Assembly (NCBI RefSeq): GCF_005877055.1
Contig: NZ_CP039424.1
Location: 2,852,001-2,916,000, forward strand
Direction of reading: 5' to 3'
Origin: Citricoccus sp. SGAir0253
GTDB lineage: Bacteria > Actinomycetota > Actinomycetes > Actinomycetales > Micrococcaceae
Length of the DNA stretch: 64,000 bases
Part shown: positions 40,444 through 58,910 of the stretch, piece by piece
Position numbering within the stretch: the stretch's first letter is position 1
Layout: the number at the start of each line of letters is the position of its first letter
Position numbers and translations under genes: made by a program
Notes under the pieces: generated by a model
What the model was told of the DNA's origin: nothing
Seen by the model: only the letters and a program-made list of their open reading frames with translations
Database searches by the model: none

Positions 40444-40482
40444 GCCCCCAGCGTAGCCACGCCCGGAGGGGATTGCCAGCAA

Positions 40483-40565: not shown

Positions 40566-40584
40566 CCTTCCGCCGTGCGGAAGG
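40566..40584. promoter_or_regulatory. IclR-type palindrome, site A
   Basis: CCTTCCGC-CGT-GCGGAAGG is perfect over 8-bp arms. It stands 123 bases from both the leftward DUF6282 start and the rightward CGDC mini-protein start. It belongs to the TTCCGY-N3-RCGGAA series found at 47.1, 56.3, 56.4 and 61.9 kb. Confidence 0.65.
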
Positions 40585-40706
40585 CATCCCGTGCCCGCCG
40601 GCCGGCGTGGACACAATGGACCGATGCGGGCACCCATGCGGCCCCGCGCCCGTGGGTGCCCGCCGACCAATCGCCACGGCCACGCCCCGCGACCACAGGA
40701 GGAACC

Positions 40707-40955
40707 ATGTCCACCCAGCCCCTGGAGGAACTCCGCCAGACCCTGGCCGCCGACGGATACGTCCTCGCGGTGACCCGGGTCGGCCCCCGCCTGGACGCAC
40801 GCATCAGCGCCGAGGCCGGAGTGTGCGGCGACTGCCTGGTGCCCAAGCACCTCATGGCCACGATGATCGCCAACGCGACCGGCCGCACCCCGGAGGACAT
40901 CGACGTCACCTATCCCTCCGAGATCGGCGACGACGGCCAGCTCGTCGAGGCCTAG
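40707..40955 (+). CDS. 82-residue CGDC-motif protein, function unknown
   Basis: A small protein with a near-perfect ribosome site (AGGAGGAACC before the ATG), which implies strong expression. It has an N-terminal helix (LEELRQTLAADGYVLAV), a beta strand, then AGVCGDCLVPKHLMATMIANATG with a CxxC pair, and an acidic end. The layout is like a small redox or metal-binding domain, possibly NifU-like in size, but I do not recognise a family. Upstream is an IclR-type palindrome shared with the alcohol dehydrogenase loci, so it may belong to that regulon. Confidence 0.75.
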   Translation: MSTQPLEELRQTLAADGYVLAVTRVGPRLDARISAEAGVCGDCLVPKHLMATMIANATGRTPEDIDVTYPSEIGDDGQLVEA

Positions 40956-43330: not shown

Positions 43331-44211
43331 CGACCACTCATCTCGTCGCGGATGTTCTCCCCGAGCAGGTTGAAGGACAGGACCGTGGCCAGGAGGGCCA
43401 GGCTCGGCCACAGCACCAGCAGCGGGGTGGCGGACATGGACTGCTGTCCCTCGAAGATCATGTTCCCCCAGCTGGGGTTGGGGGCGGGGATGCCCAGGCC
43501 CAGGAAGCTCAGGGCCCCCTCGGTGACGATGACGATCCCCATGCCGAGCATGGCGAAGTTCAGCATCTGGGGGGTGATGTTCGGGGCGACGTGCAACAGC
43601 AGGGTGCGCCACGCGGGGCTGCCGCCGAGTTCCGCCGCCTGGAGATAGGGCATCGTCTTCACGCGCAGCGTGGCCGACCGGGACACCCTGGCCACGGCGG
43701 GGATGCTGAAGGCCGTCAGGGCCAGGACCGTATTGGGCAGGCTTGGCCCCAGGGCCTGGGCGATGGCGATGGTCAGCACGAGCGAGGGGAAGGCGATCAC
43801 GACGTCCAGGACGCGCATGATCACGTTGTCCACCCACCCGCCCACGTAGCCCGAGACGGCTCCGATCCCCCCGCCGACCACGAGTCCGATGACGTTGACG
43901 GCCACGGCGACGATGAGCGAGGACTGGCCACCGTGGAGCAGCCGGGACAGCACGTCGTTGCCGTTGACGTCCGTCCCGAGCGGGTGTCCCGGCGAGCCGG
44001 GCGGCAGGGCGCTCTCGAGGATGTTGCCGCCCACCGGTGCCGGCAGGGGCAGCAGGACGGGACCGAGGAAGCAGGCCACCAGCAGGAGGCCCACGAAGGC
44101 GACGGGCAGGCCGAGCACCAGCCGCCGGCGGATCCGGGACCAGCGGGCGCCCAGGTCCTCGGGCGGGGACAGGACGGTGGCGACGACGGCCGGGGCTTCA
44201 GTGACTGCCAT
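43327..44211 (-). CDS. oppC: Oligopeptide/dipeptide-type ABC transporter permease
   Basis: A 294-residue inner-membrane permease with about six helices. It has the N-terminal OppC_N-type segment, HPLGTDVNGNDVLSRLLHGGQSSL and the EAA-type coupling helix QAAELGGSPAWRTLLLHVAPNI. It overlaps the end of oppB by 14 bases. Confidence 0.9.
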   Translation of the reverse strand: MAVTEAPAVVATVLSPPEDLGARWSRIRRRLVLGLPVAFVGLLLVACFLGPVLLPLPAPVGGNILESALPPGSPGHPLGTDVNGNDVLSRLLHGGQSSLIVAVAVNVIGLVVGGGIGAVSGYVGGWVDNVIMRVLDVVIAFPSLVLTIAIAQALGPSLPNTVLALTAFSIPAVARVSRSATLRVKTMPYLQAAELGGSPAWRTLLLHVAPNITPQMLNFAMLGMGIVIVTEGALSFLGLGIPAPNPSWGNMIFEGQQSMSATPLLVLWPSLALLATVLSFNLLGENIRDEMSGR

Positions 44212-45229
44212 AGCGGATCCTCGGGTCTAGGACGGCGTACAGGAGGTCGACGACGAGGTTGGCCAGCACTGCCACGGCGGCGAAGACGAAGACGCACATC
44301 TGCACCACGGCCACGTCCCGGGACATGGCGCCCTCGAGCATCATCATCCCCATGCCCGGCATGGCGAAGATCTGCTCGATGATCACGGTGCCGCCCACGA
44401 GGGTGCCGATGTTCAGCCCCACGATCGTCAGCAGGCCGAAGGAGGAGTTCCGGAAGGCGTGGAGCCACAGCACCAGCCAGGGGCGGACGCCCTTGGCCCG
44501 GGCGGTGTCCACGTAGTCGGCCGCGTTCATCTGCTCCACGAGGTCTCCGCGCAGGAACCGCGTGTAGAACGCCGCCAGGGGCACGGCGAGCGCCAGCACC
44601 GGCAGGGTGACCGACCGCAGGTTCGGCAGCAGCCCCTCGGACAGGGGAACGAAGCCGATGGCCGGCAGCAGCCGCAGCATGATGCCGAAGACCAGGACCA
44701 GGAGCATGGCCAGCACGTAGTTCGGCACGGCCAGCATCGTCATGGAGACGACCATCGTGGCCCGGTCGAAGACCCCGCCCGGCCGCCGCGCGGCGAGCAG
44801 GGCCACCGGGATCGCGATGGCCAGGGACACGGCGAAGGCCAGGAGCACCAGTTCCATGGTCACCGGTGCGCGGTCCCCCAGCATCTCGGTCACCGACTGG
44901 CCGCTGACGGAGGACCGTCCGAGGTCTCCCCTGAAGATGCCCCCCAGCCAGCCGAGATAGCGCTCCACGGGCGGCCGGTCCAGGCCCAGCCGCCTCCGGA
45001 CCGCCTCGACCTCCTCCTCCGAGGCGTCCATGCCCGCCTGGTTGCGGGCCGGGTCCCCGGGCATCATCTCCAGCAGGGCGAACACCAGGACGCTGATGGC
45101 CAGCAACAGCGGGATCGCCATCAGCAGCCGCCGCAGGGTCAGTCTCACCAGGGGCGAGCCCGAGACCCGGCCCGGACGGCGGTGCGCCGCGGGCCGGGTC
45201 TCGGTGCTCCGCGTGACGGTCTCAGTCAC
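44198..45229 (-). CDS. oppB: Oligopeptide/dipeptide-type ABC transporter permease
   Basis: A 343-residue permease with the DppB/OppB N-terminal helix and periplasmic loop (MMPGDPARNQAGMDASEEEVEAVRRRLGLDRP), the EAA loop YVDTARAKGVRPWLVLWLHAFRNS and the terminal VDLLYAVLDPRIRYG. It overlaps the binding-protein gene by 8 bases. Confidence 0.9.
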   Translation of the reverse strand: MTETVTRSTETRPAAHRRPGRVSGSPLVRLTLRRLLMAIPLLLAISVLVFALLEMMPGDPARNQAGMDASEEEVEAVRRRLGLDRPPVERYLGWLGGIFRGDLGRSSVSGQSVTEMLGDRAPVTMELVLLAFAVSLAIAIPVALLAARRPGGVFDRATMVVSMTMLAVPNYVLAMLLVLVFGIMLRLLPAIGFVPLSEGLLPNLRSVTLPVLALAVPLAAFYTRFLRGDLVEQMNAADYVDTARAKGVRPWLVLWLHAFRNSSFGLLTIVGLNIGTLVGGTVIIEQIFAMPGMGMMMLEGAMSRDVAVVQMCVFVFAAVAVLANLVVDLLYAVLDPRIRYGSH

Positions 45230-47009
45230 CTTCGACCCACACCTCGTCGTAGAGGACCGTGGAGTTCACGGTCAGGGCGGGGATGGGCGTGGTGAGCCCG
45301 GGACCGTGGACGCCCTTGCGGACCACCTGCGCCGGCGAGAACGCCATCCCGAACGGGCCGTACGCCTCGTCGGAGATCATCGTGGCGGCCTCCTGGTACA
45401 GCTGCTCCCGCTCCGCCGGGTCCACCGTGGCGGAGGCGTCCGTGAGCACCTCGTCCAGGTCGGTCTGCAGCCCCTCCTGCATCGCCTCCGTCGCCGTGGA
45501 CGCCCCCTCCGGCAGCGGCGTGCCGCTGAACGGGGAGGTCGAGCCGAAGCGGACGGCGACGCCGATGCCCGCCGCCGGGTCCCAGGCGCCGGCGGTCTGG
45601 AGCATCGACTCCCACTCGCCGCTGGTGAACTTGGTGATGACGTCCCCCAGCGGCTGGGCCTCGATCTCCACCTCGATGCCGGCCTCGCGCCACTGGGTCT
45701 GCAGCGCGGTGGTCACGGAGCGGGCCGTGACGATGTCCGTGGTGCCGAGCTCGACCTTGAGCCCGCCGAGCTCCTCCACCAGCGCCTTGGCCTTCTCCAC
45801 GTCGTGGGTGCGGTACCCCTCGACCTCCGGCTGGTGGAACAGTCCGCCGGAGGCGGTGAACGACTGGCTCATGTCCCCCTGGCCCTGGAACAGCCCCTGG
45901 TTGATGGCCTCGAAGTCCGTGGCGTAGTAGATCGCCTCACGGGCTCTCTTGTCGTCGAAGGGCTCCGCACGGGTGTTGAGCTGGATGACGTAGGGCGAGG
46001 TCGGGGCGCCCAGCGTGGTCGTCAGCTCCGCGTTGGACTGGGCCTGGGAGATCAGGGTGACCGCGCTGAGGCCCTCGATCGCGTCGCCCTGGCCCGCCTG
46101 GAGCGTCTGGTACGCCACCTGGTCGCCGTTGACGGACTGGAACGTCAGGTCGTCCAGGTACGGCAGCCCCTCCTTGAAGTACTCGGGGTTCTTCTCCAGC
46201 TCCAACCGCTCGCTGAGGTTGTTCGCCTCCACGGTGAAGGGGCCGGCGGCCACGGGCGTCCGGGCGAATTCCTCGGCGCCGAGCTCCTTGTAGGCCGTGG
46301 GCGAGCCGATGTAGTTCATGTTGGTGGCCGGCATCGCGTTGACGAAGGCACCGTTCGGGACCGCGAAGTGGATCTCGAGGGTCTTGTCGTCGACCGCCTG
46401 GATCGCCCCGAGCTGCTGCTCGATGGTCGTCTTGTCGACGTCCTCGGGCAGGGCCGCGTAGAGGTCGTCCAGGAAGTCCTGGTCGAGGTCCGGCATCTCC
46501 CGTTCCAGGTCGAGCTGGATGCGGGGCGCCCCCGTACTGCCCGAGCTCAGGTCGCGGATCCAGTTCCACAGGACGGCCCGGGCGTCCATGGGGGTGCCGT
46601 CGGAGAAGGTGACCCCCTCCTTGAGCGTGACGGTCAGGGTCTTGCCGTCCTCGGAGTATTCGTAGGACTCGGCCTGGTTGGGCCGGATCTCGGCGTTCTT
46701 GCCCTCCTCGTCCGCCACGAGGGTGAACAGGCCACCGAAGATGGCGGAGTTCTGGGCCAGGTTGGCCCCGACGGTGTTGCTCGTGGCGGGGTCGAGGCCG
46801 GTGTTCCACCCACCGGCGAAGCCGGCGTCCAGCAGGACCGTCAGGTCCCCGCCGGCCTGGGGCTCGGCACTGCTGCCGGCCCCGGCGGCACCGGCCGCCC
46901 CCGGGTCCCCGCCCGAGCAGGACGTGAGGGCCAGGCCCAGGCCGGCGGCGAGGGCTACGGTGCCCATCAGACGACGGGCTGCCCAGTGGTGACGCGAAGT
47001 GTGGTTCAT
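45222..47009 (-). CDS. oppA: Extracellular solute-binding lipoprotein of ABC importer (family 5)
   Basis: A 595-residue lipoprotein. A signal peptide ends at the lipobox LTSC, followed by a Gly/Ala/Ser linker, so the protein is anchored outside the membrane. The remainder matches family-5 binding proteins (ESYEYSEDGKTLTVTLKEGVTFSDGTPM; FARTPVAAGPF; AREAIYYATDFEAI). Such proteins bind peptides but also opines, glycosides, nickel and aromatic conjugates; the catabolic context makes a non-peptide ligand plausible. GGGGAG lies 6 bases before the ATG. It heads the importer operon, with an operator-like region at 47069-47123. Confidence 0.9.
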   Translation of the reverse strand: MNHTSRHHWAARRLMGTVALAAGLGLALTSCSGGDPGAAGAAGAGSSAEPQAGGDLTVLLDAGFAGGWNTGLDPATSNTVGANLAQNSAIFGGLFTLVADEEGKNAEIRPNQAESYEYSEDGKTLTVTLKEGVTFSDGTPMDARAVLWNWIRDLSSGSTGAPRIQLDLEREMPDLDQDFLDDLYAALPEDVDKTTIEQQLGAIQAVDDKTLEIHFAVPNGAFVNAMPATNMNYIGSPTAYKELGAEEFARTPVAAGPFTVEANNLSERLELEKNPEYFKEGLPYLDDLTFQSVNGDQVAYQTLQAGQGDAIEGLSAVTLISQAQSNAELTTTLGAPTSPYVIQLNTRAEPFDDKRAREAIYYATDFEAINQGLFQGQGDMSQSFTASGGLFHQPEVEGYRTHDVEKAKALVEELGGLKVELGTTDIVTARSVTTALQTQWREAGIEVEIEAQPLGDVITKFTSGEWESMLQTAGAWDPAAGIGVAVRFGSTSPFSGTPLPEGASTATEAMQEGLQTDLDEVLTDASATVDPAEREQLYQEAATMISDEAYGPFGMAFSPAQVVRKGVHGPGLTTPIPALTVNSTVLYDEVWVEGD

Positions 47010-47284: not shown

Positions 47285-48331
47285 TCAGCGGCTCCGGGCC
47301 GCCGGCCCCGCCACGGCCGCCGCCGAGGCGTCCTCCCCGGTCCGGCCGAGCCAGCGCAGGGCGTTGCGGGAGCCGATGTCCTCCCACTGCCCGGCCGGCA
47401 GGTCCATCTCCCGCAGGGTCCGGGCGATGGGTTCCTCCCGGGGCATCGCGGGGAAGTCGGAGCCGACCAGCAGGCGGTCGGCGCCCAGCAGGTCGATCAG
47501 GTACCGGATCGTCCGGTGGTCGAAGACCATCGAGTCGTAGTAGAACCGCCGCGCGATCTCCAGCGGGGACGGACCGTCGTCGGGCATCACGGCGCGCGCG
47601 GGGTCCACCGGGCCCTCGTTCCAGGCACCACCCCAGAAGTACTGGGCCCGGGGCAGCATCATGGCGAAGCCGCCGGCGGCATGGCTGAAGGAGATGCGCA
47701 GGTCCGGGCAGGCGGCGGCCGTGCCGCCGAGGGCCATGGAGCCGGCGGCGAACATGCCCTCCACCCCGACCACGTAGGTCCCCATGGCGGACATCGGCAG
47801 CCGGGACGTGGGCGAGGGCATGGCGTGGACGAAGACGGACAGCCCCAACCGCTCGGCCTCGCGGAAGAACTCCAGGAACCGCTCGTGCCCGATCGAGTCC
47901 CCGAGGACGTTCGAGGCGATCTCGACCCCGGCCAGGCCGGCATCCCGGATGGCGGACAGTTCGGCCGTCGCCGCGTCGGGATCCTGCAGCGGCACCATGC
48001 CGAGGCCGGCCAGGCGGTCCGGGGCGTGCGCGCACGACTGCGCGGTGAAGTCGTTGACGTGCTGGGCCAGGGCGAGGCCGTCCGCCGCGGGCAGGTCGTA
48101 CCTCAGCAGCGGGGGCATGGGGCTGACGACCTCCATGTCCACCCCCGAGGCGTCCTGCTCCTCGAGCCGCCGCTCGGCGGCGAAGAAGGCGTCCCGGGCC
48201 CGGAAGCGCATCTGCCCGAAGACGAGGGTGCGGTCGGTGGACCCGTCCACCGGCTCCATCGACGGGAAGCATGCCGGGGCGCCCTCCGGGTAGTCGGCGG
48301 GCAGGACGTGTGCGTGGGCGTCGATGATCAT
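47285..48331 (-). CDS. Amidohydrolase 2 family protein (ACMSD-like)
   Basis: A 348-residue metal-dependent hydrolase/decarboxylase with the N-terminal zinc motif IDAHAHV, a middle VFVHAM, the ISFSHAAGG strand and the C-terminal LLVGSDFPAMPREE Asp. These are the metal sites of the 2-amino-3-carboxymuconate-6-semialdehyde decarboxylase/gamma-resorcylate decarboxylase group, which act on aromatic or ring-opened acids. It follows a zinc alcohol dehydrogenase by 38 bases and is probably the last gene of that leftward operon. Confidence 0.85.
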   Translation of the reverse strand: MIIDAHAHVLPADYPEGAPACFPSMEPVDGSTDRTLVFGQMRFRARDAFFAAERRLEEQDASGVDMEVVSPMPPLLRYDLPAADGLALAQHVNDFTAQSCAHAPDRLAGLGMVPLQDPDAATAELSAIRDAGLAGVEIASNVLGDSIGHERFLEFFREAERLGLSVFVHAMPSPTSRLPMSAMGTYVVGVEGMFAAGSMALGGTAAACPDLRISFSHAAGGFAMMLPRAQYFWGGAWNEGPVDPARAVMPDDGPSPLEIARRFYYDSMVFDHRTIRYLIDLLGADRLLVGSDFPAMPREEPIARTLREMDLPAGQWEDIGSRNALRWLGRTGEDASAAAVAGPAARSR

Positions 48332-48369
48332 GGGTGGGGTGCCTTCCAGGGGGTCGGGACAACGGCTCG

Positions 48370-49611
48370 TCACGGGGTGCGTCCGAGATGGGGCTGGACG
48401 GTGACGTGGATGGCGCTCGTGTCCTCGCGCTCGCCGGCCAGGGTCTCGATCGCCTCGGCGACCTGGTCCAGCCCGAAGGTGTGGGTGTGCAACCGTTCGA
48501 GCGGGAACCGCCCCGACTCCAGCAGGGCGATCGCCTTCTCGTTGGCGGCCGCGTCCACCCCGAAGGCGCCCCGGACGGTGAGGCCGCGGTTGATGACCAG
48601 GTCGGTGTCCAGCGGGATCTCACGCCCGCCCTTCAGCCCGGCCAGCACCACCCGGCCGCCGTGACGGACGACGTTGAGGGCGTCCGTCACCGGCCCGGCC
48701 GCCATCGGGGTCAGGTCGAGCGAGACGTCCGCCATGCGCCCCCCGGTGATCTCGGTGACCGCCTCGACGATGTCCCGGCCCTCCGGCCCGTCCACCACGA
48801 TGGCGTGGTCGGCGCCGAGCTCCTCCGCGACGGCCAGCTTGTGCCGGTCCGACTCCAGCCCGGTGATGATGACCGTCCGGGCGCCGGCCGCCTTGGCGGC
48901 CATCACGGCGGCGAGGCCGCGCTGGCCCGCGCCGAGGACCACCAGGGTGTCCCCCAGCCCCACCTCCCCGAGGTCCACCGCCCAGCGGACGCCCGCCCCC
49001 AGGGGGTTGTACATGGCGGCGATGTCGATCGGCAGGCGCCTGTCGACCTTGTGCATGACCGCGTTGGGGGCCAGGTACAGGTATTCGGCGAACCCCCCGT
49101 GGAGGGACGGCTCCACGTCCACCGGCGTCACGCCGTGCCCACCCTGCCTGTTCCGGCAGGCCTGGTACCGGCCCACGAGGCAGTCGGCGCACGAGCGGCA
49201 GGGAATGATCACCTCGAGTGCCACCCGGTCACCCACCTGCACGCCCCACCGCTCGGCGGCCCGCTCGCCCAGTTCCTCGATGATGCCCAGGGGCTCGTGG
49301 CCGGGGATGAAGGGGGCGGCCGAGCGGCCGTGGAGGTGTCCGCGGTAGATCTCCACGTCCGAGCCGCAGATGCCGTTGGCCTCCACCCGGAGCAGCCCGT
49401 CGTCGGGACCGGTCACGGGCCGCGGGAACTCCCGGACCTCCAGGGTGCGGGGACCCGTCTGCACGACGGCGCGGATCGTCCGGGACCGCCCGGACGGCCT
49501 CGCGCCGCGGGGCTCCCCGGAGGCGTCACGCTCGCGTGGGCCGTCGGGGACGACGGGGACGGCGGTGACGTCCGAGACGTCGGGGACACTGTCGGTCATG
49601 CGCTCTGGCAT
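48370..49611 (-). CDS. Zinc-dependent alcohol dehydrogenase (threonine/sorbitol dehydrogenase-like MDR)
   Basis: A 413-residue MDR enzyme. The catalytic zinc site is ANGICGSDVEIYRGH, IPGHEP follows, and the structural zinc site is CRSCADCLVGRYQAC. The Rossmann motif is VVLGAGQRGLAAVMAA, with Gln-Arg in place of the usual Gly-pair. The first 45 residues are a charged extension absent from typical MDRs. ATG 49611 has GAGG 10 bases upstream; ATG 49599 is an alternative. A 153-base gap with a hairpin separates it from the SDR gene before it, so it may be partly uncoupled from the upstream genes. Confidence 0.87.
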   Translation of the reverse strand: MPERMTDSVPDVSDVTAVPVVPDGPRERDASGEPRGARPSGRSRTIRAVVQTGPRTLEVREFPRPVTGPDDGLLRVEANGICGSDVEIYRGHLHGRSAAPFIPGHEPLGIIEELGERAAERWGVQVGDRVALEVIIPCRSCADCLVGRYQACRNRQGGHGVTPVDVEPSLHGGFAEYLYLAPNAVMHKVDRRLPIDIAAMYNPLGAGVRWAVDLGEVGLGDTLVVLGAGQRGLAAVMAAKAAGARTVIITGLESDRHKLAVAEELGADHAIVVDGPEGRDIVEAVTEITGGRMADVSLDLTPMAAGPVTDALNVVRHGGRVVLAGLKGGREIPLDTDLVINRGLTVRGAFGVDAAANEKAIALLESGRFPLERLHTHTFGLDQVAEAIETLAGEREDTSAIHVTVQPHLGRTP

Positions 49612-49737
49612 GTCGGTCACCTCTCTGTTGGCTGGCGCGCGGCCGTCGACGGACACGCGCGGCCGGACGTCCGCGAGGCGGTCCCGTCCGGTGGGTGGAT
49701 GCGGAGCCGGGCCCGGTGCCCGCCTCCGGGAACAGGG

Positions 49738-49760
49738 CGGGCCCCCGTCCACGGGGCCCG
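49738..49760 (-). terminator. Hairpin after the SDR gene, partial terminator or processing site
   Basis: CGGGCCCC (49738-49745) pairs with GGGGCCCG (49753-49760) around a small loop, right after the SDR stop on the minus strand. No U-tract follows. It may lower read-through into the alcohol dehydrogenase. Confidence 0.4.
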
Positions 49761-49764: not shown

Positions 49765-50625
49765 TCAGCGGGCCACGCTGGTGACCGGCGGCCCGGCGGG
49801 CCCCCGGCCGAAGGGGCCACCGTCCACGGCGAGCGTCTGGCCGGTGATCCACCGGGCCTCGTCACTGAGCAGGAATGCGGCCGCGTGGGCGATGTCCCAG
49901 GCGCTGCCCTCCGTCTTCAGCGTGGTGGCCTCCCGGCGCTGCGCCCGGAAGGACTCGTCCATGTTCGCCGCCGCGAAGGAGCCCCAGATGGCGCCCACCT
50001 CGATGGTGTTGACGCGGATGCCCTGCGGACCGAGCGTGGTGGCGGCGCCCTCGCCGAGGTTCTCCAGCCCGGCCTTGGCCACGCAGTAGGGCATCCCCGG
50101 ACCGCGGGCGCGCACCCCCACGGAGGAGATGTTGAGGATGGCGCTGCCGCGGGGCATCCGGGGCACCGCATGGCGCGTCACGTACCAGGCCGACTTGAGG
50201 TTGATGTCCAGCAGCTCCTCGAACCGCTCGGGCGTGATGTCGAAGATTCCGGCCCGGTCACCGCTCGCGACGTTGTTGACCAGCGTGTCCAGGCCCCCCA
50301 TCAGGTCCACCGCCTCGGCGATGGCCCGCTCGCACTCCGCGTCCCGGGTGACGTCCGCCGTGAGCGGGTGTGCCACACCGCCACCTGCCGCGATCCGGTC
50401 CACCGTGCGCCGGGCGGCCTCGGGGCTGCGGTCCAGGACCACCACGGAGGCACCCCGCGCCGCCAGGAGCCGGGCGATCCCGTACCCGACGCCGGGCAGG
50501 TCCCCGTTCTGGCCGGCGCCGGTCACGAGTGCCCGGCGGCCGGCCATCCGGGCCGTCCCCTGGCCGGCCAGGGGGTCCTCGAGCGGTGTCTCCGTGAGCC
50601 GGTCGTCGAGATCGATGCTGTCCAT
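49765..50625 (-). CDS. SDR-family oxidoreductase
   Basis: A 286-residue SDR with catalytic YCVAK and the later TGQTLAVDGG ending typical of classical SDRs. The cofactor loop is stretched (GAGQNGDLPGVGYGIA) compared with TGxxxGxG, so NAD(P) binding geometry may be altered. The first 25 residues (LDDRLTETPLEDPLAGQG) form a polar lead. The ATG abuts the stop of the gene before it. The substrate is unknown; the other operon members are alcohol and aldehyde dehydrogenases. Confidence 0.85.
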   Translation of the reverse strand: MDSIDLDDRLTETPLEDPLAGQGTARMAGRRALVTGAGQNGDLPGVGYGIARLLAARGASVVVLDRSPEAARRTVDRIAAGGGVAHPLTADVTRDAECERAIAEAVDLMGGLDTLVNNVASGDRAGIFDITPERFEELLDINLKSAWYVTRHAVPRMPRGSAILNISSVGVRARGPGMPYCVAKAGLENLGEGAATTLGPQGIRVNTIEVGAIWGSFAAANMDESFRAQRREATTLKTEGSAWDIAHAAAFLLSDEARWITGQTLAVDGGPFGRGPAGPPVTSVAR

Positions 50626-51756
50626 CTACCGTCCCTCTGCTGTCAGCGCCGCGGCGGCCCCGGGACGCGGCCGCGCCCCGTCCTCCGCCGCGGCGACGGT
50701 GGTGGTGGAGCCGGCGGCGCGGACGGCGACGGGCCGGCCGGACCAGTCGGCGAAGTAGCGCACGACCATGGAGATCCCCGCGTTGCGGGACCCGGCCACC
50801 GCGATGATCATCGAGGCCGGGTCCGCGATGGTGCGCTGGAACTCGTCCGGGTCCGCGGGCTCTCCGGGGAAGCGCACGCCGTTCTCGTTGGACCGGTCCT
50901 TGCCCACCGCCGCGAGCTGGCCGGTGGTGCGGCCGGAGTGCTCGGCGAGCCAGGCCGCGACGTCCGCCCGGGAGAACCCTGCCTGCGCCAGCAGGTTCGC
51001 GTGCTCGGGGCACAGCACCAGCCCGGCCGCCGCGTGCCGGAAGATCCATGGGCCGGAACGGCCGATGGTGTCGGCGAAGTCGGCGAGCAACTGCTCCGGG
51101 GCCGCGGTGTGCCGGTTGTCCACGAACTCGCTCGTGCGCAGCAGCGTGGAGGTCACCGCGTCCCCGGGCACGCCCAGGTCCTCGGCGAGCGGGGCCCACG
51201 GGCTCTCCTCCTCGTTCTCCGCCAGGCAGATGGACCACCGTCCCGGGATGCCCTGGGTGGCCTGCTCGAGTTCGTGCGGACGGATGCCGTAGGCGTTGCG
51301 CACGGTCAGCCCGATCGCCCGGGCCACGGTGGCGTTGGGCCTGAACCCGGGGCCGAACACGCCGCCGGTGCCGTTGAAGCCCAGCTCCCGGCGGACCGGT
51401 CCGTTGACGATGATGAGCGGTGCCGGTCCACTGGTGGACTGCCACCCCCCGCCCCCCGTGGTCCGTTCGCGGGCCAGTGCCTCCCACGCGGCCAGGACCA
51501 CCGGGAAGTACTCGGGCAGGCATCCGGCCATCGCCGCGTTGATGGCCAGCAGTTCCACCGTGACGGTGCGGTCCACCTGCCTCAGGTGGCTGAGGACCTC
51601 GTCCGCCGGGCGGCCCGCGGCCGCCAGGAACCGGTCCACCAGCTCCCGGGTGGCGGGCACCGCCGGCAGCCCGTCCGTCCACCCCTGGGCGTAGGCGTAC
51701 TCGATGGCGTCCTGGGCCGCGGCCGGGTCCAGCCGGCCGGCCGTCGGGGCGGTCAT
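50626..51756 (-). CDS. Partner protein of the UGSC-family protein, function unknown
   Basis: A 376-residue, mostly helical soluble protein. The start IEYAYAQGWTDGLPAVPATRELVDRFLAAAGRPADEVL is a recognisable lead of proteins found next to UGSC proteins; the interior has INAAMAGCLPEYFPVVLAAWEAL, SGPAPLIIVNGPVRRELGFN and GFRPNATVARAIGLTVRN. The single-Cys LAINAAMAGCLPEY segment could pair with the Cys motif of the neighbour. I do not know a reaction. Its ATG overlaps the UGSC stop (ATGA), so they are made together and probably form a complex. Confidence 0.8.
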   Translation of the reverse strand: MTAPTAGRLDPAAAQDAIEYAYAQGWTDGLPAVPATRELVDRFLAAAGRPADEVLSHLRQVDRTVTVELLAINAAMAGCLPEYFPVVLAAWEALARERTTGGGGWQSTSGPAPLIIVNGPVRRELGFNGTGGVFGPGFRPNATVARAIGLTVRNAYGIRPHELEQATQGIPGRWSICLAENEEESPWAPLAEDLGVPGDAVTSTLLRTSEFVDNRHTAAPEQLLADFADTIGRSGPWIFRHAAAGLVLCPEHANLLAQAGFSRADVAAWLAEHSGRTTGQLAAVGKDRSNENGVRFPGEPADPDEFQRTIADPASMIIAVAGSRNAGISMVVRYFADWSGRPVAVRAAGSTTTVAAAEDGARPRPGAAAALTAEGR

Positions 51757-52349
51757 GCCCCCTCCCCCGTGGCCCGTCCCGGGGCGGTCAGCGTGGACAG
51801 GATCTCGGGCACCAGCCGCCGGGCCCGTTCCCGGACCTGGTCCTCCGACAGCACGGCCATGGGGTGCTCCGTCCGGATCCACGCGTAGTCGGGCGCGCCC
51901 TGCACCCCGGCCATCGTGCGGCCGGTGATGTCGAAGGCGTCGGTGAGGACGGCCGCGGCCGGTAGTCCGGCACGCTCGAAGGCGATCCCGTCCGCCACCG
52001 CGGCCGCGCTGCAGGATCCGCAGTCGCCCACCCCGGTGACCACCACGTCGCAGGCGGTCCGGTACCGGGAGATGATCTCCTCGTCCACGGGGACCGAGAA
52101 GTTCGCCTTGGTCTCCACGATGCCCACGGAGTCGGCCCCGTGTTCCTCGACCAGCAGCTCGCCCACGGCCTGCAGGAACAGCATCGCGTTGTGCTTGGTG
52201 TTGTCCAGCAGGCCGATGCGGGCCCCGGCCAGCGAGTCCGGCCGGGGTGCCAGCCGCACGGCCGGCCGGCCCTCGGATGCCGTGCCGTCCGGCGCGGGGC
52301 CACCGGTCGCGGGCGCCCGGCCCGTGGGGTCCAGGATGGTGTCGGTCAT
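51753..52349 (-). CDS. UGSC-family protein, Cys form
   Basis: A 198-residue protein with a Rossmann-like layout (GARIGLLDNTKHNAMLFLQAVGELL, VVTGVGDCGSCSAAAVADG, AFERAGLPAAAVLTDAF). The motif at residues 110-113 is Cys-Gly-Ser-Cys; in the UGSC (seleno)protein family the first position is often selenocysteine. Here both codons are TGC, so it is the Cys version, with no need for Sec decoding. Such a motif suggests a thiol/selenol redox or transferase centre. It is embedded between an NDMA-dependent alcohol dehydrogenase and its partner gene. Confidence 0.82.
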   Translation of the reverse strand: MTDTILDPTGRAPATGGPAPDGTASEGRPAVRLAPRPDSLAGARIGLLDNTKHNAMLFLQAVGELLVEEHGADSVGIVETKANFSVPVDEEIISRYRTACDVVVTGVGDCGSCSAAAVADGIAFERAGLPAAAVLTDAFDITGRTMAGVQGAPDYAWIRTEHPMAVLSEDQVRERARRLVPEILSTLTAPGRATGEGA

Positions 52350-52357: not shown

Positions 52358-53527
52358 CTACTGCTCGTGGACGATGATGCCGCGGATGTTCCGTCCTGCG
52401 AGCAGGTCCTCGTACGCGGTGTTCACCTCGTCCAGGGTGTACTTGCGGGTGATCAGTTCCTCGAGCTTGAGGTCGCCGGAGCGGTACAGGCCGAGCAGCT
52501 TCGGGATGTCGTACAGCGGGTTGCAGTCCCCGAAGAGGGCTCCCCGGACCTGCCGCTGGTAGCTGATGAGCATGCCGGCGTGGATCGTCACCGCCTGCTC
52601 GTCGAGGTGGCCGACCGAGGTGATGGTGAGCTTGCCGCCCTTGCCGGTCATCGCGATCCCGGCGTTGGCCATCTCCTGCGTGACGACGTCGGCGGTGATG
52701 ATCACCTTGTCCGCCAGCTGCCCCCAGGTGGTGTCCACGACGAAGTCGTGGGCCTCCTGCGCGGTGGCGAAGGCGTGGGTGGCCCCGAACAGCTCGAGCG
52801 CGGACTCGCGCTTGAAGGCCACGGGGTCCACGACCACCACGTTCTTGGCGCCGGCGTAGCGGGCGCCCTGGACGGCATTGGAGCCCACGCCGCCGGCCCC
52901 GAAGACCACCACGGTCTCCCCCGCGCGGACCTCGGCGGCGTAGACGGCCGATCCCCAGCCGGTGGGGACGCCGCAGCCCACGAGCGAGCCGAGCTCGAAC
53001 GGGATGTCGTCCGGCAACGGGACGACGGCGTACTCGGAGACCACCGTGAACTGGGAGAACGTGCCCAGGGTGCAGAAGCCGCCGACGTCCTCGCCCGTCC
53101 CGTCATGGAAGCGGAAGGTGTCGTCGAGGAACATGCCCGTCCCGGCGTTGAGGCCCTTGACGCACATGTTCTGGTGTCCGGTGGAGCACGGCCGGCAGTA
53201 CCCGCAGGCGGGGATGTAGGCGCAGACCACGCGGTCGCCCGGCCTCACGCGGGTGACGCTCGGGCCGACCGACTCCACGACCCCGGCGCCCTCGTGGCCG
53301 CCGACGATGGGGAACCGGACGGGGGCGTCCCCGGCGGTGATGTGGTGGTCGGAGTGGCACAGCCCGGCGGCGTGCATCCGCACCCGGACCTCGTGTTCCT
53401 TCGGGGGGTCCACCCGCAGCTCGGTGAGCTGCCAGCCCTCGTGGGGGCCCCGGGCGACGGCGGCGCGCGTGGTCAGCGTGGCCGCGGGGGCCTCTTCCGT
53501 GGTGACCGTGGTCGTGGGGATTGCCAT
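52358..53527 (-). CDS. NDMA-dependent (nicotinoprotein) zinc alcohol dehydrogenase
   Basis: A 389-residue MDR enzyme. Catalytic zinc site AGLCHSDHH and GGHEGAG; structural zinc site CGYCRPCSTGHQNMC; Rossmann motif VVFGAGGVGSNAVQGA. The GCGVPTGWGSAVYAAEVRAGE block marks the NDMA-dependent group, in which NAD stays bound and electrons leave through mycofactocin in vivo. The first 20 residues are Thr/Ala-rich. AAAGGAAG lies 8 bases before the ATG. It is 14 bases behind the aldehyde dehydrogenase gene, so alcohol to acid oxidation in one operon is likely. Confidence 0.88.
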   Translation of the reverse strand: MAIPTTTVTTEEAPAATLTTRAAVARGPHEGWQLTELRVDPPKEHEVRVRMHAAGLCHSDHHITAGDAPVRFPIVGGHEGAGVVESVGPSVTRVRPGDRVVCAYIPACGYCRPCSTGHQNMCVKGLNAGTGMFLDDTFRFHDGTGEDVGGFCTLGTFSQFTVVSEYAVVPLPDDIPFELGSLVGCGVPTGWGSAVYAAEVRAGETVVVFGAGGVGSNAVQGARYAGAKNVVVVDPVAFKRESALELFGATHAFATAQEAHDFVVDTTWGQLADKVIITADVVTQEMANAGIAMTGKGGKLTITSVGHLDEQAVTIHAGMLISYQRQVRGALFGDCNPLYDIPKLLGLYRSGDLKLEELITRKYTLDEVNTAYEDLLAGRNIRGIIVHEQ

Positions 53528-53541: not shown

Positions 53542-55032
53542 TCAGTTGCCCGGACGCGTCGCGCCGCGCATCGAGACGGTCTTGACCTGGGTCCACTCCA
53601 GGACGGAGTCGGCGCCCATGGTCCGCCCGAAGCCGCTGTTCTTGTAGCCGCCGAACGGGCCGCCGATCACCCCGGCGCCGAGGGCGTTGTTGATGCCGAC
53701 CTGACCGGCCTGCAGCGCCCGGGACATCCGCACGGCGGTCCCGACGTCCTCGGTCCACACCGAGGCGACCAACCCGTAGTCGACCCCGTTGGCCACCGCG
53801 ATCGCCTCCGCCTCGTCGTCGACGGGGATGACGGACAGCACGGGACCGAAGATCTCCTCCCGGGCGATCGTCATGTCCGGGCTGACGTTGTCGAAGAGGG
53901 TCGGGCTCACGAAGAAGCCGTCCCCGTACTCCGCCCCGCGGGGAACGCCGCCGCCGACCACCACGTCGGCCCCCTCGGAACGGCCCGCCTCGATGTAGCC
54001 CATGACCCGCTCGTGCTGGCGGCCGTTGATGAGCGGTCCCATGTTCACCGGCTGGTGCCACGGGCCCACGGAGATGCGCTCCATGGCCTGGGCCAGGCGT
54101 TCCACCACCTCCTGGTGCACGCTGCGCAGGACCACCACGCGCGATCCGGCGGCACAGATCTGGCCGGTGTTCAGGGTGATGCCGCTGGCGATGGCCGGCG
54201 CGGCCACGGACAGGTCCGCATCGGGGAAGACCACCTGGGGGGACTTTCCACCGAGCTCGAGATGCAGGGGGATGAGGTTGCGGGCGCAGGCCTCCATGAC
54301 GGTGGCCCCCGTGACCGGCGACCCGGTGAAGCCGACGCGGCGGATGCCCGGATGGCTGGGGATCGCCGCCCCGGCCTCGGACCCGTAGCCGGTGACGACG
54401 TTGACGACCCCGGCCGGGATGCCCGCGTCCATCGCGAGGCGGGCCAGTGCCAGGGGCGCGAGCGGCGCGTCCTCGGCGGGCTTGATGACGATGGTGTTCC
54501 CGGCCGCGATGGCGGCGGCCACCTCGGTGACGAACATCGGCCCCGGGGCGTTCCAGGGGATGATGGCGCCGACCACGCCGTAGGGCTCGCGCAGGGTGAA
54601 CCCGACGACGTCCGGCGTGTAGGTCGGCAGCGAGACGCCCTGCACCTTGTCCGCCTGGCCGGCGATGAAGCGCACCTGTCCGGCCATGGGCGGCGGGCCC
54701 CAGTGCGGACGTCCGACGTCGCGTGACTCCAGCTGGTCCAGCACGGCCGCGTGCTCGTCGATCAGCTCCGCCCAGCGGAACAGCAGCCCGGCGCGGGCGG
54801 TGGCGTTGAGGTCCCGCCAGGCGGGCAGCGCCCGCTCCGCCGCCCGGACGGCGGCGTCCACGTCCTCGGCGGTGCCGCGCGGCACCCGGCCCAGCACCTC
54901 GCGGTTGGCCGGGTTGAGGACCTCGATGGTCTCCCCGCTCGCGGCGGGGACCCATTCCCCGCCGATGAGGTGGGCGTTGTCCCGCAGCAGCTCCGTGTCG
55001 AGTGCCGCCTGGGGGTCGATGACTGCAGTCAT
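53542..55032 (-). CDS. NAD(P)-dependent aldehyde dehydrogenase
   Basis: A 496-residue aldehyde dehydrogenase with the cofactor region NTIVIKPAEDAPL, GFTGSPVTGATVM, the general base in LHLELGGKSP and the catalytic Cys in NTGQICAAGSRVV. The length is normal. It sits between two nicotinoprotein alcohol dehydrogenases, so it probably takes the aldehyde they produce to the acid. The exact substrate cannot be read from the sequence. Confidence 0.9.
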   Translation of the reverse strand: MTAVIDPQAALDTELLRDNAHLIGGEWVPAASGETIEVLNPANREVLGRVPRGTAEDVDAAVRAAERALPAWRDLNATARAGLLFRWAELIDEHAAVLDQLESRDVGRPHWGPPPMAGQVRFIAGQADKVQGVSLPTYTPDVVGFTLREPYGVVGAIIPWNAPGPMFVTEVAAAIAAGNTIVIKPAEDAPLAPLALARLAMDAGIPAGVVNVVTGYGSEAGAAIPSHPGIRRVGFTGSPVTGATVMEACARNLIPLHLELGGKSPQVVFPDADLSVAAPAIASGITLNTGQICAAGSRVVVLRSVHQEVVERLAQAMERISVGPWHQPVNMGPLINGRQHERVMGYIEAGRSEGADVVVGGGVPRGAEYGDGFFVSPTLFDNVSPDMTIAREEIFGPVLSVIPVDDEAEAIAVANGVDYGLVASVWTEDVGTAVRMSRALQAGQVGINNALGAGVIGGPFGGYKNSGFGRTMGADSVLEWTQVKTVSMRGATRPGN

Positions 55033-55060: not shown

Positions 55061-56170
55061 TCAGTGCTCGATGGTGATGATTCCGCGGATGTTCTTGCCG
55101 TCGAGCATGTCCCGGTAGCCCTCGTTGACCTGGTCCAGGGTGTAGCGACTGGTGATCAGTTCATCGAGCTTGAGCTTGCCGGCCTGGTACATGCCGACCA
55201 GCCGGGGGACGTCGTGCAGCGGGTTGCAGGCGCCGAAGATGGCCCCCTGGATCCGGCGCTGGTAGCCGATGAGCATGCCGGGGTGTTCCCGGATGGTCCC
55301 GTTGCCGACGGCCGTGATGGTGACCTGGCCGGACTTGCCGACGATGTTGATGGCGTCGTGGATGACCTCGTCGTGCAGGCTGCCGACCGTGATGATGGCG
55401 TGGTCGGCGAGTTCGCCCCACGTGGACTCGATGACGAAGTCCGTGGCCTCCTGGGCGCTCGGGAACACGTGCGTGGCGCCGAACTCCAGGGCCTTGTCCC
55501 GCTTGAACTCGACGGGGTCGACGACCACCACGCGCTGGGCGCCGGCCAGCGCCGCGCCCTGGACGGCGTTCATGCCGACCCCGCCCGCGCCGAACACCAC
55601 GGCCGTCTGGCCGACCTGGACGCCGGCCGCGTGGACGGCCGAGCCCCATCCGGTGGGGACGCCGCAGCCGACGAGGCAGGCGACGTCGAACGGGAGGTCC
55701 TCCGGGATCGGGATCACGGAGTACTCGGAGACCACCGTGTACTGGGAGAAGGTGCCCAGGACGCAGAGCCCTCCGAAGTCCACGCCGTCCTGGTGGAAGC
55801 GGAAGGTCCCGTCCGGGAACTCCCCGGTGGCGGCGTTCTTGCCGGAGTCGCAGAGGTTCTGGCGGCCGGTGGAGCAGTACCGGCAGGAGCCGCAGGCCGG
55901 GATGAAGGAGCACACGACGTGGTCCCCCACCTTGACGCGAGTGACCCCCTCGCCGACGGCGTCGATGATCCCGGCGCCCTCGTGGCCGCCGACCACCGGC
56001 ATGCGCATGGGGGCGTCGCCCTTCTGGATGTGGTCGTCCGAGTGGCACATGCCGGCGGCCATCATCTTGATGCGGACCTCGTTGGCCCGGGGCTCGTCGA
56101 GGTCGAGTTCGGTGACTTCCCAGGGCTGTCCGGGCGCACGGCACACGACCGCGCGGGTCTTCATGCTCAT
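55061..56170 (-). CDS. NDMA-dependent (nicotinoprotein) zinc alcohol dehydrogenase, paralogue
   Basis: A 369-residue paralogue of the enzyme at 52.4 kb and closer to the standard family start (KTRAVVCRAPGQPWEVTELDLDEP). Zinc sites AGMCHSDDH, GGHEGAG and CGSCRYCSTGRQNLC and the Rossmann motif VVFGAGGVGMNAVQGA are complete. It is the first gene of the leftward operon and its promoter region holds two IclR-type palindromes. Two NDMA-type enzymes around one aldehyde dehydrogenase suggest two related alcohol substrates, or a diol. Confidence 0.88.
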   Translation of the reverse strand: MSMKTRAVVCRAPGQPWEVTELDLDEPRANEVRIKMMAAGMCHSDDHIQKGDAPMRMPVVGGHEGAGIIDAVGEGVTRVKVGDHVVCSFIPACGSCRYCSTGRQNLCDSGKNAATGEFPDGTFRFHQDGVDFGGLCVLGTFSQYTVVSEYSVIPIPEDLPFDVACLVGCGVPTGWGSAVHAAGVQVGQTAVVFGAGGVGMNAVQGAALAGAQRVVVVDPVEFKRDKALEFGATHVFPSAQEATDFVIESTWGELADHAIITVGSLHDEVIHDAINIVGKSGQVTITAVGNGTIREHPGMLIGYQRRIQGAIFGACNPLHDVPRLVGMYQAGKLKLDELITSRYTLDQVNEGYRDMLDGKNIRGIITIEH

Positions 56171-56533: not shown

Positions 56534-57286
56534 ATGGACAAGTTCCGCGCGGATCTCCACGAGCACCTGGACGCCGTCTGGGACGGAGCCTCGATCGCCG
56601 TCGGCGGGTTCGGCAGCTCCGGGCGACCGGACGCCCTGCTCAACGCCCTCTGCGACCTGGGCAAGAGGGACCTGCACCTGTACGTCAACAACGTCGGGGA
56701 CGACTTCACCGGCATCGGCCGGCTGGTGATGGAGGGGCGGGTGCGCCGACTGACCGGTTCCTTCCCCGTGCTGCCGGAGTTCTACGACGAGTACTTCGCG
56801 GGCCGGGTGGAACTCGAGCTCATCCCCCAGGGCACCCTGGCGGAGCGGATGCGGGCGGGAGGGGCCGGCATCGCCGCCTTCTACACGCCCTCGGGGGCCG
56901 GCACCATGCTCTCGGACGGCAGCTTCCCGCTGGCGTACGCCGCGGGGTCCCCGGACCGGTTCGTCCCGGCCAAGGAGGAGCGCTCCTTCGACGGCCGCCC
57001 CCACGTCCTCGAGCATGGCATCCGGGCGGACTTCGGGCTCGTCAAGGCCCAGCAGGCCGACCCCAAGGGCAACGTCCGCTTCCACCTCTCGGCCCGGAAC
57101 TTCAACCCGCTGGCCGCCATGTCCGGCCGGACCACCTTCGTGGAGGTCGAGCGGCTGGTGGGCACCGGGGACCTCGGCCCGGACGACATCCACCTCCCCG
57201 GGGTCTTCGTGGACCACGTGGTGATGACCGCAGCACCCATCCCGGCCGACCTGCCCCGGCGGGCCGCCATGACCCAGGACGGCTGA
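56534..57286 (+). CDS. CoA-transferase subunit A (3-oxoacid/3-oxoadipate CoA-transferase type)
   Basis: A 250-residue family-I CoA-transferase alpha subunit (IAVGGFGSSGRPDALLNALCD; LYVNNVGDD; FVPAKEERSFDGRPHVLEHGIRADFGLVKAQQADPKGN). It moves CoA between succinyl-CoA or acetyl-CoA and a carboxylic acid with the beta subunit. AAGGAGG lies 9 bases before the ATG. The beta subunit starts 2 bases after the stop. The acid might be the product of the divergent alcohol/aldehyde dehydrogenase operon. Confidence 0.88.
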   Translation: MDKFRADLHEHLDAVWDGASIAVGGFGSSGRPDALLNALCDLGKRDLHLYVNNVGDDFTGIGRLVMEGRVRRLTGSFPVLPEFYDEYFAGRVELELIPQGTLAERMRAGGAGIAAFYTPSGAGTMLSDGSFPLAYAAGSPDRFVPAKEERSFDGRPHVLEHGIRADFGLVKAQQADPKGNVRFHLSARNFNPLAAMSGRTTFVEVERLVGTGDLGPDDIHLPGVFVDHVVMTAAPIPADLPRRAAMTQDG

Positions 57287-57288
57287 CC

Positions 57289-57966
57289 ATGTCCACGACC
57301 GACACCGGCACCGGCGTGCCCACCATCACCGGTCGCAGCCGCGACCAGATCGCCCAGCGCCTCGCGGAGGACCTGCAGGACGGCTACACGGTCAACCTGG
57401 GGGTGGGCATCCCGCTGGCCGTGCCCCATCACGTACCGCCCGGCCGGGAGGTGTTCCTCCAGTCCGAGAACGGCATTCTCGGCCTGGGCCCCGCCCCGGA
57501 GCCGGGCGCGGAGGACCCCGACCTCACCAACGCCGGCAAGCAGCCGGCCAGCATGATCCCGGGCGGGGCCATCGTGGACTCCGCCACCTCGTTCGCCATC
57601 ATCCGCGGCGGGCACCTGGACGTGACCATCCTCGGTGCCCTGCAGGTCTCCGAGTCCGCGGACCTGTCCAACTGGTACGTCCCCGGACGCAACCCCGCCG
57701 TGGGCGGGGCCATGGACCTCGTGGCCGGGACGCCCCAGGTCTGGGTCTGCATGGAGCACGTGGACCGGGGCGGACGGCCCAAGCTGGTCCGCGAGTGCAC
57801 CTTCCCGCTGACCGGCCGCGGCGTGGTCACCCGGGTCTACACGGACCTCGCCGTCTTCCACGTGCGCGGCGGCCGGCTGACCCTCGTCGAGTGCGCCCCG
57901 GGCATCACCCCGGAGGACGTCCGGCTGCGGACCGAGGCGGCCTACGACGAGGCGATCGGCCGATGA
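57289..57966 (+). CDS. CoA-transferase subunit B
   Basis: A 225-residue beta subunit. The catalytic Glu is in QSENGILGLGP near residue 62, and DSATSFAIIRGGHLDVTILGALQVSE and NWYVPGRNPAVGGAMDLVAG match the PcaJ/ScoB pattern. The first 15 residues are Thr/Gly-rich. It overlaps the next gene by 4 bases (ATGA). PcaIJ-like similarity suggests, but does not prove, a dicarboxylic beta-keto acid as substrate. Confidence 0.88.
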   Translation: MSTTDTGTGVPTITGRSRDQIAQRLAEDLQDGYTVNLGVGIPLAVPHHVPPGREVFLQSENGILGLGPAPEPGAEDPDLTNAGKQPASMIPGGAIVDSATSFAIIRGGHLDVTILGALQVSESADLSNWYVPGRNPAVGGAMDLVAGTPQVWVCMEHVDRGGRPKLVRECTFPLTGRGVVTRVYTDLAVFHVRGGRLTLVECAPGITPEDVRLRTEAAYDEAIGR

Positions 57967-58910
57967 CCGCGGTGGGCACGGACCCGCCGCCGGTCCCGTC
58001 CCCCGGCCCGGCGGCACCGTCCCTGGACCGGTGGCGGGAGCTGGCCGGGATCGACGTGCACGTGCACGTGCACCGCTCCGTGGAGCACGACGCCGGCCCG
58101 GTCGAGTCGGGCGGGCAACTGGGCGAGTACTTCGGCATCGGCACCATGCACGGCCGCACGGTGCCCGAGATCGCCGAGCACTACCGCGCGCGGCGGATGG
58201 CCGCCGTCGTCTTCACCGTCGACTCCCTCTCCGCGACCGGCGAGGAGCCGGTGCCCGGCAACCGGGAGGTCGCCGAGCTGGCCGCCCAGCATGCCGACGT
58301 CCTGGTCCCCTTCGCCAGCATCGACCCCGCCCGCGGGGCGGCCGGCGTCCGCGAGGCCAGGATCCTCGCCCGCGACCACGGGGTCCGCGGGTTCAAGTTC
58401 CACCCCGGCGTCCAGCGCTTCCACCCCGACGACCGCCGGGCCTACCCCCTCTACGAGGTCATCCAGGAGTACGGGTGCATCGCCCTGTTCCACACCGGGC
58501 AGACCGGCGTGGGTGCCGGGTCCCGGGGCGGCGGCGGGATCCGGCTGAAGTACTCCCGCCCGCTGGCCATCGACGACGTGGCCGCGGACTTCCCCGACCT
58601 GGACATCATCATGGCCCACCCGTCCTTCCCGTGGCAGGACGAGGCCCTGTCCATCGCCCTGCACAAGCCGCGGGTGTACATCGACCTCTCCGGCTGGTCG
58701 CCGCGGTACTTCCCGCCACAGCTCGTCCGGTACGCGGACACGCTGCTGCGCCACAAGGTGCTCTTCGGCACCGACTACCCGGTCATCACGCCCGAGCGGT
58801 GGCTGGAGGAGTTCGCCCGCCTGCCGATCCGCGACTCCGTCCGGCCCCTGGTCCTGCGGGAGAACGCCGCCCGCCTGCTCCGGCTCCCGGGAGCCGGCGC
58901 CGCCGGCTGA
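57963..58910 (+). CDS. Amidohydrolase 2 family protein
   Basis: A 315-residue TIM-barrel protein with IDVHVHVHRS, FKFHPG, IIMAHPSFPW and LFGTDYPVITPERW, the metal-binding positions of the amidohydrolase-2 (decarboxylase/hydrolase) group. The N-terminal 30 residues are Pro/Ala-rich. Coupling to the CoA-transferase implies it acts on the same pathway, perhaps a decarboxylation or hydrolysis before or after CoA activation. It is not a close copy of the amidohydrolase at 47.3 kb. Confidence 0.83.
   Translation: MTAVGTDPPPVPSPGPAAPSLDRWRELAGIDVHVHVHRSVEHDAGPVESGGQLGEYFGIGTMHGRTVPEIAEHYRARRMAAVVFTVDSLSATGEEPVPGNREVAELAAQHADVLVPFASIDPARGAAGVREARILARDHGVRGFKFHPGVQRFHPDDRRAYPLYEVIQEYGCIALFHTGQTGVGAGSRGGGGIRLKYSRPLAIDDVAADFPDLDIIMAHPSFPWQDEALSIALHKPRVYIDLSGWSPRYFPPQLVRYADTLLRHKVLFGTDYPVITPERWLEEFARLPIRDSVRPLVLRENAARLLRLPGAGAAG

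Follow-up and report, generated by a model that had tools for sequence, protein, structure and literature searches.

A cysteine-form UGSC protein and its partner in an alcohol-oxidation operon of Citricoccus

What could a Cys-Gly-Ser-Cys protein, from a family that often uses selenocysteine (Sec), be doing beside a protein that matches no family, within an operon of alcohol and aldehyde dehydrogenases? The question is raised by a stretch of 64,000 nucleotides of Citricoccus sp. SGAir0253 (the window), for which a first-pass annotation had suggested that the two proteins may perform a thiol-based step on the aldehyde or acid product. The UGSC passages of the papers found, in a search of mostly open-access journal articles on selenoproteins, go no further than suggesting a general redox role; they name no specific function, no partner gene besides the 'Unknown_1' fusion and no link to GrdB/PrdB.

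The operon and its conservation

The genes and codons on which the argument rests are as follows.

51753..52349, minus strand: UGSC-family protein, Cys form, 198 aa (PF24696, NF041046)
50626..51756, minus strand: partner protein, 376 aa, no family matched (ORF, alignment A3, AlphaFold2 model)
51753..51756, minus strand: ATGA shared by the UGSC stop and the partner start (sequence)
52020..52022, minus strand: Cys110 codon TGC (TGA, Sec, in most relatives; TAG in two loci)
52011..52013, minus strand: Cys113 codon TGC, second Cys of the U/CxxC motif (invariant in alignment A2)
52358..53527, minus strand: NDMA-dependent (mycofactocin-type) alcohol dehydrogenase 1 (TIGR03989, 503.7 bits, cut-off 440)
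53542..55032, minus strand: aldehyde dehydrogenase (PF00171, E 2.1e-159)
55061..56170, minus strand: NDMA-dependent (mycofactocin-type) alcohol dehydrogenase 2, operon gene 1 (TIGR03989, 528.7 bits, cut-off 440)
49765..50625, minus strand: short-chain dehydrogenase (SDR), directly after the partner (PF13561, E 1.4e-57)
48370..49752, minus strand: medium-chain (zinc-type) dehydrogenase, ORF start unrefined (PF08240 and PF00107; syntenic)
47285..48373, minus strand: Amidohydro_2 family protein (PF04909, E 8.2e-27; syntenic)
45222..47009, minus strand: ABC transporter substrate-binding protein (PF00496; syntenic)
43327..44211 and 44198..45229, minus strand: two ABC permeases (PF00528)
56534..58910, plus strand: divergent block of CoA-transferase A and B subunits and a second Amidohydro_2 (PF01144 twice, PF04909)

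The minus-strand genes are closely packed from alcohol dehydrogenase 2 to the ABC permeases (56170 to 43327), and the UGSC-partner pair begins 8 nt past the gene for alcohol dehydrogenase 1. The CoA-transferase A and B subunits are further assigned by TIGR02429 and TIGR02428, both above cut-off. The first mycofactocin genes lie about 0.6 kb past the right end of the window (~64600 onward, L204); they include an MftA-like peptide at ~64600 in window coordinates, whose C-terminus SIDGMCGVY we take to be the MftA-like motif, and the mycofactocin radical SAM gene MftC (646 bits against a cut-off of 265), which starts 980 bp past the window end. Considering the TIGR03989 scores and these nearby genes, the nicotinoprotein label of the dehydrogenases is well supported, and the pathway of the operon seems to be mycofactocin-linked. 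Two placements made in the first-pass annotation stand: the pair follows a nicotinoprotein dehydrogenase, and it is embedded in an alcohol-oxidation operon, which has two NDMA-type alcohol dehydrogenases and an aldehyde dehydrogenase.

Of the seven further genomes listed for the genus, four contained the partner, and among 149 genomes of the family it had no match outside the genus (E <= 1e-10 in both cases). Both divergent blocks, through the ABC permeases, are retained in three of the four partner-bearing congeners; the contig of the fourth (L184) reaches no farther than the binding protein, and no match to the second Amidohydro_2 was obtained there. Apart from that gene in L184, the plus-strand block is syntenic in the four congeners and in a Streptosporangiaceae genome (L062), and the ABC permeases are syntenic in three congeners and L062. 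The SDR following the partner is retained in the four congeners and unmatched in L062, where the blocks are otherwise kept with an extra luciferase-like gene.

Several other features of this region were observed. At its far end, the cluster of two congeners has a further Cys-form pair (L178:8772-10366 and L181:8855-10452), which comes after another match to the binding protein and a PIG-L-like stretch; only one partner was found in the window genome. Next to the ABC genes, window positions 36908-40909 hold catechol 2,3-dioxygenase-like (287 bits, below the cut-off of 320.2), RraA/LigK-like aldolase, PIG-L and DUF6282 genes, which might form an aromatic lower pathway. A link to PIG-L/mycothiol and a substrate of the lignin or beta-ether kind are no more than ideas, unsupported by the papers listed in a literature search.

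Neighbours beyond this lineage were surveyed for 102 of 119 listed same-strand neighbours, five of them from L062, with ORFs called by a simple rule. The commonest were Bac_luciferase (8 of 102), TctC (7), Amidohydro_2 (7), ADH_zinc_N (5) and CoA_transf_3 (4). Among the first 25 of the 157 families listed, the recurrent ones (SDR, Amidohydro_2, luciferase-like, TctC, zinc-type dehydrogenase, CoA-transferase and ABC binding proteins) each accounted for only 3-8 of the 102, which rules out constant neighbours across the UGSC family. The first-pass annotation had named randomly varying neighbours as the outcome that would speak against its interpretation. Gene order is kept with small differences in the four congeners and L062, whereas beyond that group the other neighbours do vary. 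Since the pair stays together while its other neighbours change outside the orthologous group, the alcohol-oxidation setting belongs to the lineage and not to the family. UGSC and its partner are a portable module, placed in an operon for alcohol oxidation in one of the lineages surveyed.

Pairing of the two genes and the Sec or Cys state

The window's UGSC protein scored 210.3 bits against PF24696 (cut-off 25, E 2.8e-62) and 149 bits against NF041046 (cut-off 125), and by these profile scores it is a full-length member of the UGSC family. It was compared with its relatives in alignment A2, which comprises the window protein and 57 of 78 listed copies (58 rows, TGA read as Cys). The motif is C110-G-S-C113, and P8, C110 and C113 are invariant across the 58 rows. 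In the clade of the window's protein, a third motif Cys and the histidine of an HD sequence have been lost.

The phylum sample comprised 396 genomes, including the window's own. The partner occurred in 28 of these and UGSC above cut-off in 27; all 27 UGSC genomes also had the partner, and G183 was the only one of the 28 partner genomes in which UGSC was not found. When the threshold was set at E <= 0.001, UGSC was matched in 29 of the 396, the two additional genomes (G196 and G271) being below cut-off and without the partner. The UGSC search found nothing in 14 control genomes (0/14). Of at least 559 partner relatives in named genomes, the best 80 loci were kept, and in 70 of these the two genes lie on one strand within 300 bp, with the partner first in 52 and UGSC first, as in the window, in 18. 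In four loci they are farther apart or on opposite strands, and in six UGSC was not detected even at maximum sensitivity (L083, which ends at a contig edge, L087, L101 on a short contig, L106, L122 and L128). The UGSC and partner distance matrices of 69 pairs correlated with r 0.927, a value reached in 0 of 999 permutations; joint inheritance of the two genes would be expected to produce such a correlation. The pairing exceeds chance by far, and in the window the partner ATG overlaps the UGSC stop as ATGA, so that translational coupling is plausible. One locus, L028:781-2529, encodes a UGSC-like domain (PF24696, E 6.9e-6) fused to the partner, in which the motif reads MGTS and the cysteines are missing. 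Separately, G183 carries two partner domains one after the other in a single frame (L023), and three to five partner copies with one to four UGSC copies occur in L098, L100, L104 and L139, some of the copies in L139 being partial.

The Cys-less fusion, together with the mycofactocin genes about 0.6-1 kb past the window, would suit a pair that serves as a sensor or carrier of a metabolite or of mycofactocin electrons, with no catalysis of its own. However, the pair is present in many phyla and settings with differing neighbours and its motif is strictly conserved in the aligned copies, and we consider such a carrier or regulatory role quite improbable.

The best 80 loci contain 82 full-length UGSC copies. 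Exactly one in-frame TGA is present in 79 of them, followed in all 79 by G-[SAG]-C, and the remaining three (L062, L063 and L136) have Cys at the Sec site. TAG occupies the Sec position in Geodermatophilus ruber (L065:7771-7773) and Blastococcus (L134:9287-9289); UAG-encoded Sec has already been described for the bacterial family of Geodermatophilus and Blastococcus in the passages of PMC5330540. The initial description of the window's protein as a Cys-Gly-Ser-Cys form of an often Sec-containing family is thus confirmed by PF24696 and NF041046 scores above cut-off and by the TGA counts.

Among the 27 phylum-sample genomes with UGSC above cut-off, 22 contain a TGA copy and five do not (G000, G150, G102, G294 and G136). 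In a search of 34 genomes, SelB was above cut-off in 25, including 20 of the 22 genomes with a TGA copy (exceptions G036 and G326) and one of the five without, which is the window's own genome (266.6 bits against 242.25). Loss of the Sec machinery as the cause of the window's Cys form was therefore ruled out, whereas such a loss fits the lack of a TGA copy in G150, G102 and G294. G136 has no SelB above cut-off, and its fused copy is without cysteines. The window groups with L062 and L063 on one branch of the partner tree (SH-aLRT 99), within a six-row clade (100) that also contains L064-L066, all three with Sec, and the Cys state requires two changes (61 of 63 rows labelled, by locus). Because it is nested among Sec relatives, with two changes on that tree, the window's Cys form is, as judged from the partner phylogeny, derived from Sec. 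UGSC paralogues in three congeners (L176, L178, L179 and L181-L183) are likewise Cys forms.

These residue counts bear on whether the thiol chemistry has to be redox chemistry at all. Close to the step first suggested for the pair, C110 might form a thioester, thiohemiacetal or thioether with the aldehyde or acid of the operon, as in a transferase, isomerase or hydrolase, with C113 being structural, and the aldehyde dehydrogenase, CoA-transferase and Amidohydro_2 genes in the same block would be in keeping with this. We regard it as unlikely, since C113 is as invariant as C110 in A2, residue 110 is Sec in 79 of the 82 full-length copies of the best 80 loci, as is usual for redox chemistry, and part of the partners carry redox appendages.

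Predicted structures and kinship with glycine and proline reductases

A thioredoxin-like fold has been suggested for UGSC in the passages of PMC2398784 and repeated in those of PMC13188914. The AlphaFold2 model of the window's UGSC protein (pLDDT 90.8) is a parallel alpha/beta structure with a beta-alpha repeat, in which C110 immediately precedes the helix at residues 111-126. Its matches in the PDB were flavodoxin-, CheY- and lumazine-synthase-like with modest Z-scores, the highest being 9.4 for a natural and 10.3 for a designed protein, and UGSC sequence searches of the PDB gave chance-level matches only. Thioredoxins were absent among the 50 structural matches listed, which in itself excludes nothing. 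Based on the model, the fold is predicted to be flavodoxin-like alpha/beta, and the predicted structure does not support the thioredoxin-like fold of PMC2398784.

The UGSC profile was then compared with reductase profiles. The Pfam GRDB profile ends just before the Sec, so 12 GrdB genes were extended past it; they read U-G-T-G-T-R-x-G, with x being Cys in 11 of the 12, followed by E-R-x-G-I. The A2 profile aligned with this Sec half of GrdB (A5) at a probability of 87% (E 3.7e-6) and with 14 short PrdB-like selenoproteins (A9) at 57% (E 1e-4), with Sec on C110 in both; these hhalign E-values are pairwise and are not those of a database search. The known relatives A5 and A9 matched each other at 99.7%, and the control profiles reached 0.15% (GrdE), 0.9% (dehydrogenases), 0.4% (thioredoxin-like domain of the partners) and 0.1% (partner) against UGSC. 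The scores of 44.3 with A5 and 36.8 with A9 compare with maxima of 19.9 and 19.3, respectively, over 100 column shuffles each, and with the four motif columns masked the probabilities were still 73% and 65%. By profile comparison, UGSC is computed to be related to the Sec half of GrdB/PrdB, the similarity being remote and spanning about 85 residues only. The UGSC protein gave no match to PF07355 (GRDB) at E <= 0.01, and the GrdB Sec half matched no PDB sequence at the same threshold. Since both a PF07355 match and a partner of the GrdE/PrdA type (PF09338) are lacking, UGSC is not assigned to GrdB/PrdB. As a side observation, the short PrdB-like selenoproteins (L189-L202) consist of the last third of PF07355 plus UPxC, with TGA in 14 of the 14 read, and PF07355 was above cut-off in 63 of 296 phylum-sample genomes, mostly as short PrdB-like partial matches.

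The partner was aligned with 62 of 81 listed copies (A3, 63 rows), which share the motifs GWTDGLP, MAGC, NGP and PGK..C.AE.E..SPW. No Pfam or NCBIfam family was matched at E <= 0.01. Sequence searches of the PDB were likewise without a match, up to E <= 10 for the protein alone and up to E <= 1 for the 63-row profile. The AlphaFold2 model built from A3 (pLDDT 87.1) had no Foldseek match in the PDB at E <= 0.001; its best VIA match, in a structure comparison that covered mostly residues 103-336, was a chorismate mutase at Z 5.5 over 87 residues. Going by this model, the partner could represent a new fold, and the initial reading of a coupled 376-residue protein with no fold match remains valid, coupling being plausible from the ATGA overlap. 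A relationship to GrdE/PrdA was ruled out (hhalign 1.1% against the GrdE profile, no Pfam match), and because the partner is unrelated to this pyruvoyl subunit, the substrate-activating half would differ. Sec-like TGA codons in partners were also dismissed, that in L022 being a natural stop and that in the tail of L004 maybe a stop too, and we make no claim of selenoprotein status for the partners.

Some partners carry thiol appendages, which were counted by motif pattern in 30 partner rows of the phylum sample and 88 rows of the best 80 loci. An N-terminal thioredoxin-like stretch, marked by CxxC (C-P-T-S in two) and farther on by VPT, occurs in 14 of the 30 and 14 of the 88, and a Cys pair near the C-terminus in 5 and 12, respectively, the latter from a raw pattern count of 13 after L121 was dropped. 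In these 12 the tail is C-[ILV]-D-C, ending at the C-terminus or one residue before, and the two appendages never occur in the same row. A profile of eight N-terminal domains (A8) gave 25 PDB matches at E <= 0.01, all of them thioredoxins (best E 1e-5). With single sequences, one of four partners matched PF00085 Thioredoxin at a sub-threshold E of 0.011 and three gave no thioredoxin match, and phmmer with one domain found a thioredoxin at E 0.006. The window partner and its nearest relatives L062-L066 have neither the N-terminal domain nor the Cys tail.

The UxxC/CxxC motif, the thioredoxin-like fusions in part of the relatives and the reactive aldehydes expected from the operon could also be read as detoxification, with the pair as a peroxidase- or disulfide-reductase-like thiol guard of the operon enzymes, or as an aldehyde or oxidant scavenger, outside the pathway itself. 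This appears rather doubtful to us, as the UGSC fold is predicted to be parallel and flavodoxin-like, and by profile UGSC resembles GrdB/PrdB rather than the partners' thioredoxin-like domain. Moreover, the commonest neighbours belong to catabolic and transport families, though each at 3-8 of 102, and 10 of the 80 best loci contain 2 to 5 partner copies, some partial, which suggests substrate variety.

A candidate reductase and its known counterparts

In GrdB/PrdB, a substrate carbon becomes covalently bound to the Sec or Cys nucleophile, and glycine and proline reductases cleave a C-X bond next to a carbonyl. Taken all together, we tentatively favor, at slightly less than an even chance, a reading in which UGSC and its partner are a two-subunit, thiol-recharged selenol/thiol reductase of the glycine/proline-reductase type; the physical complex, the reaction type, the electron donor and the substrate of the pair are what we infer. 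Residue 110, Sec in most relatives and Cys here, would be the nucleophile at the helix N-end of a flavodoxin-like domain and would attack an electrophilic atom in a substrate bound jointly with the partner. C113 would then resolve the intermediate to a (selenenyl)sulfide or disulfide with release of the reduced product, and a thioredoxin-type thiol donor would recharge the 110/113 site. The pathway in the window may comprise ABC import of the substrate and oxidation of alcohol to aldehyde to acid, plus the hydrolase-like and CoA-transferase genes.

Counted for the reductase are the co-occurrence and adjacency of the two genes, the L028 fusion, the operon kept in four congeners and L062, the GrdB/PrdB profile match, the thiol-redox appendages on part of the partners and the invariance of P8, C110 and C113. 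Counted against it are the missing PF07355 match and GrdE-like partner, the homology of only ~85 residues, the lack of the thioredoxin-like domain, the Cys tail, the third motif Cys and the HD histidine in the window's clade, the partners without UGSC (five loci and G183), the Cys-less L028 fusion and the weak single-sequence Thioredoxin matches. Homology to GrdB/PrdB does not in itself establish the chemistry. The thiol-based step of the first-pass annotation gains from the GrdB/PrdB relationship and from the minority of partners that bear a thioredoxin-like fusion or a Cys tail, but the window's own clade has neither appendage, and that interpretation as a whole is partly supported.

With low probability, the pair could go further and constitute a new enzyme class, an aerobic reductase in which a Sec half of the GrdB/PrdB kind works with an unrelated substrate subunit of new fold in the reductive cleavage of an ether, amine or halide C-X bond adjacent to the carbonyl produced by the mycofactocin-dependent dehydrogenases. 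Comparable reductive C-X cleavage is carried out by the glutathione-dependent beta-etherases of other bacteria; if true, actinobacteria and many uncultured lineages would have in the new class a route that needs no glutathione. The near-constant partner, the GrdB/PrdB link, the partial thiol appendages and the Cys-form operon make the role of the family testable, and, with a Cys form whose actinobacterial operon is complete, a two-protein assay would do without Sec incorporation.

Within the UGSC family (PF24696/NF041046), the window copy is a full-length member above both cut-offs that differs in having Cys at the Sec site, its clade showing A-D and not H-D after the motif. As described in the passages of PMC2398784, 'Unknown_1' of marine metagenomes is a conserved domain fused to UGSC, like L028. 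GrdB/PrdB (PF07355) resembles UGSC in a profile match over about 85 residues with Sec aligned to C110, whereas only its C-terminal part aligns, UGSC is located with mycofactocin-type dehydrogenases, and the UGSC partner is not GrdE/PrdA-like. For the C-F bond of fluoroacetate, the passages of PMC10838667 propose cleavage by a GrdB/GrdE-like pair. By the description given there, FarB/FarE is similar to the present pair in being a two-subunit Sec enzyme proposed for C-X cleavage and encoded in an operon with a transporter, and different in consisting of GrdB/GrdE homologues of anaerobes with a radical SAM gene alongside.
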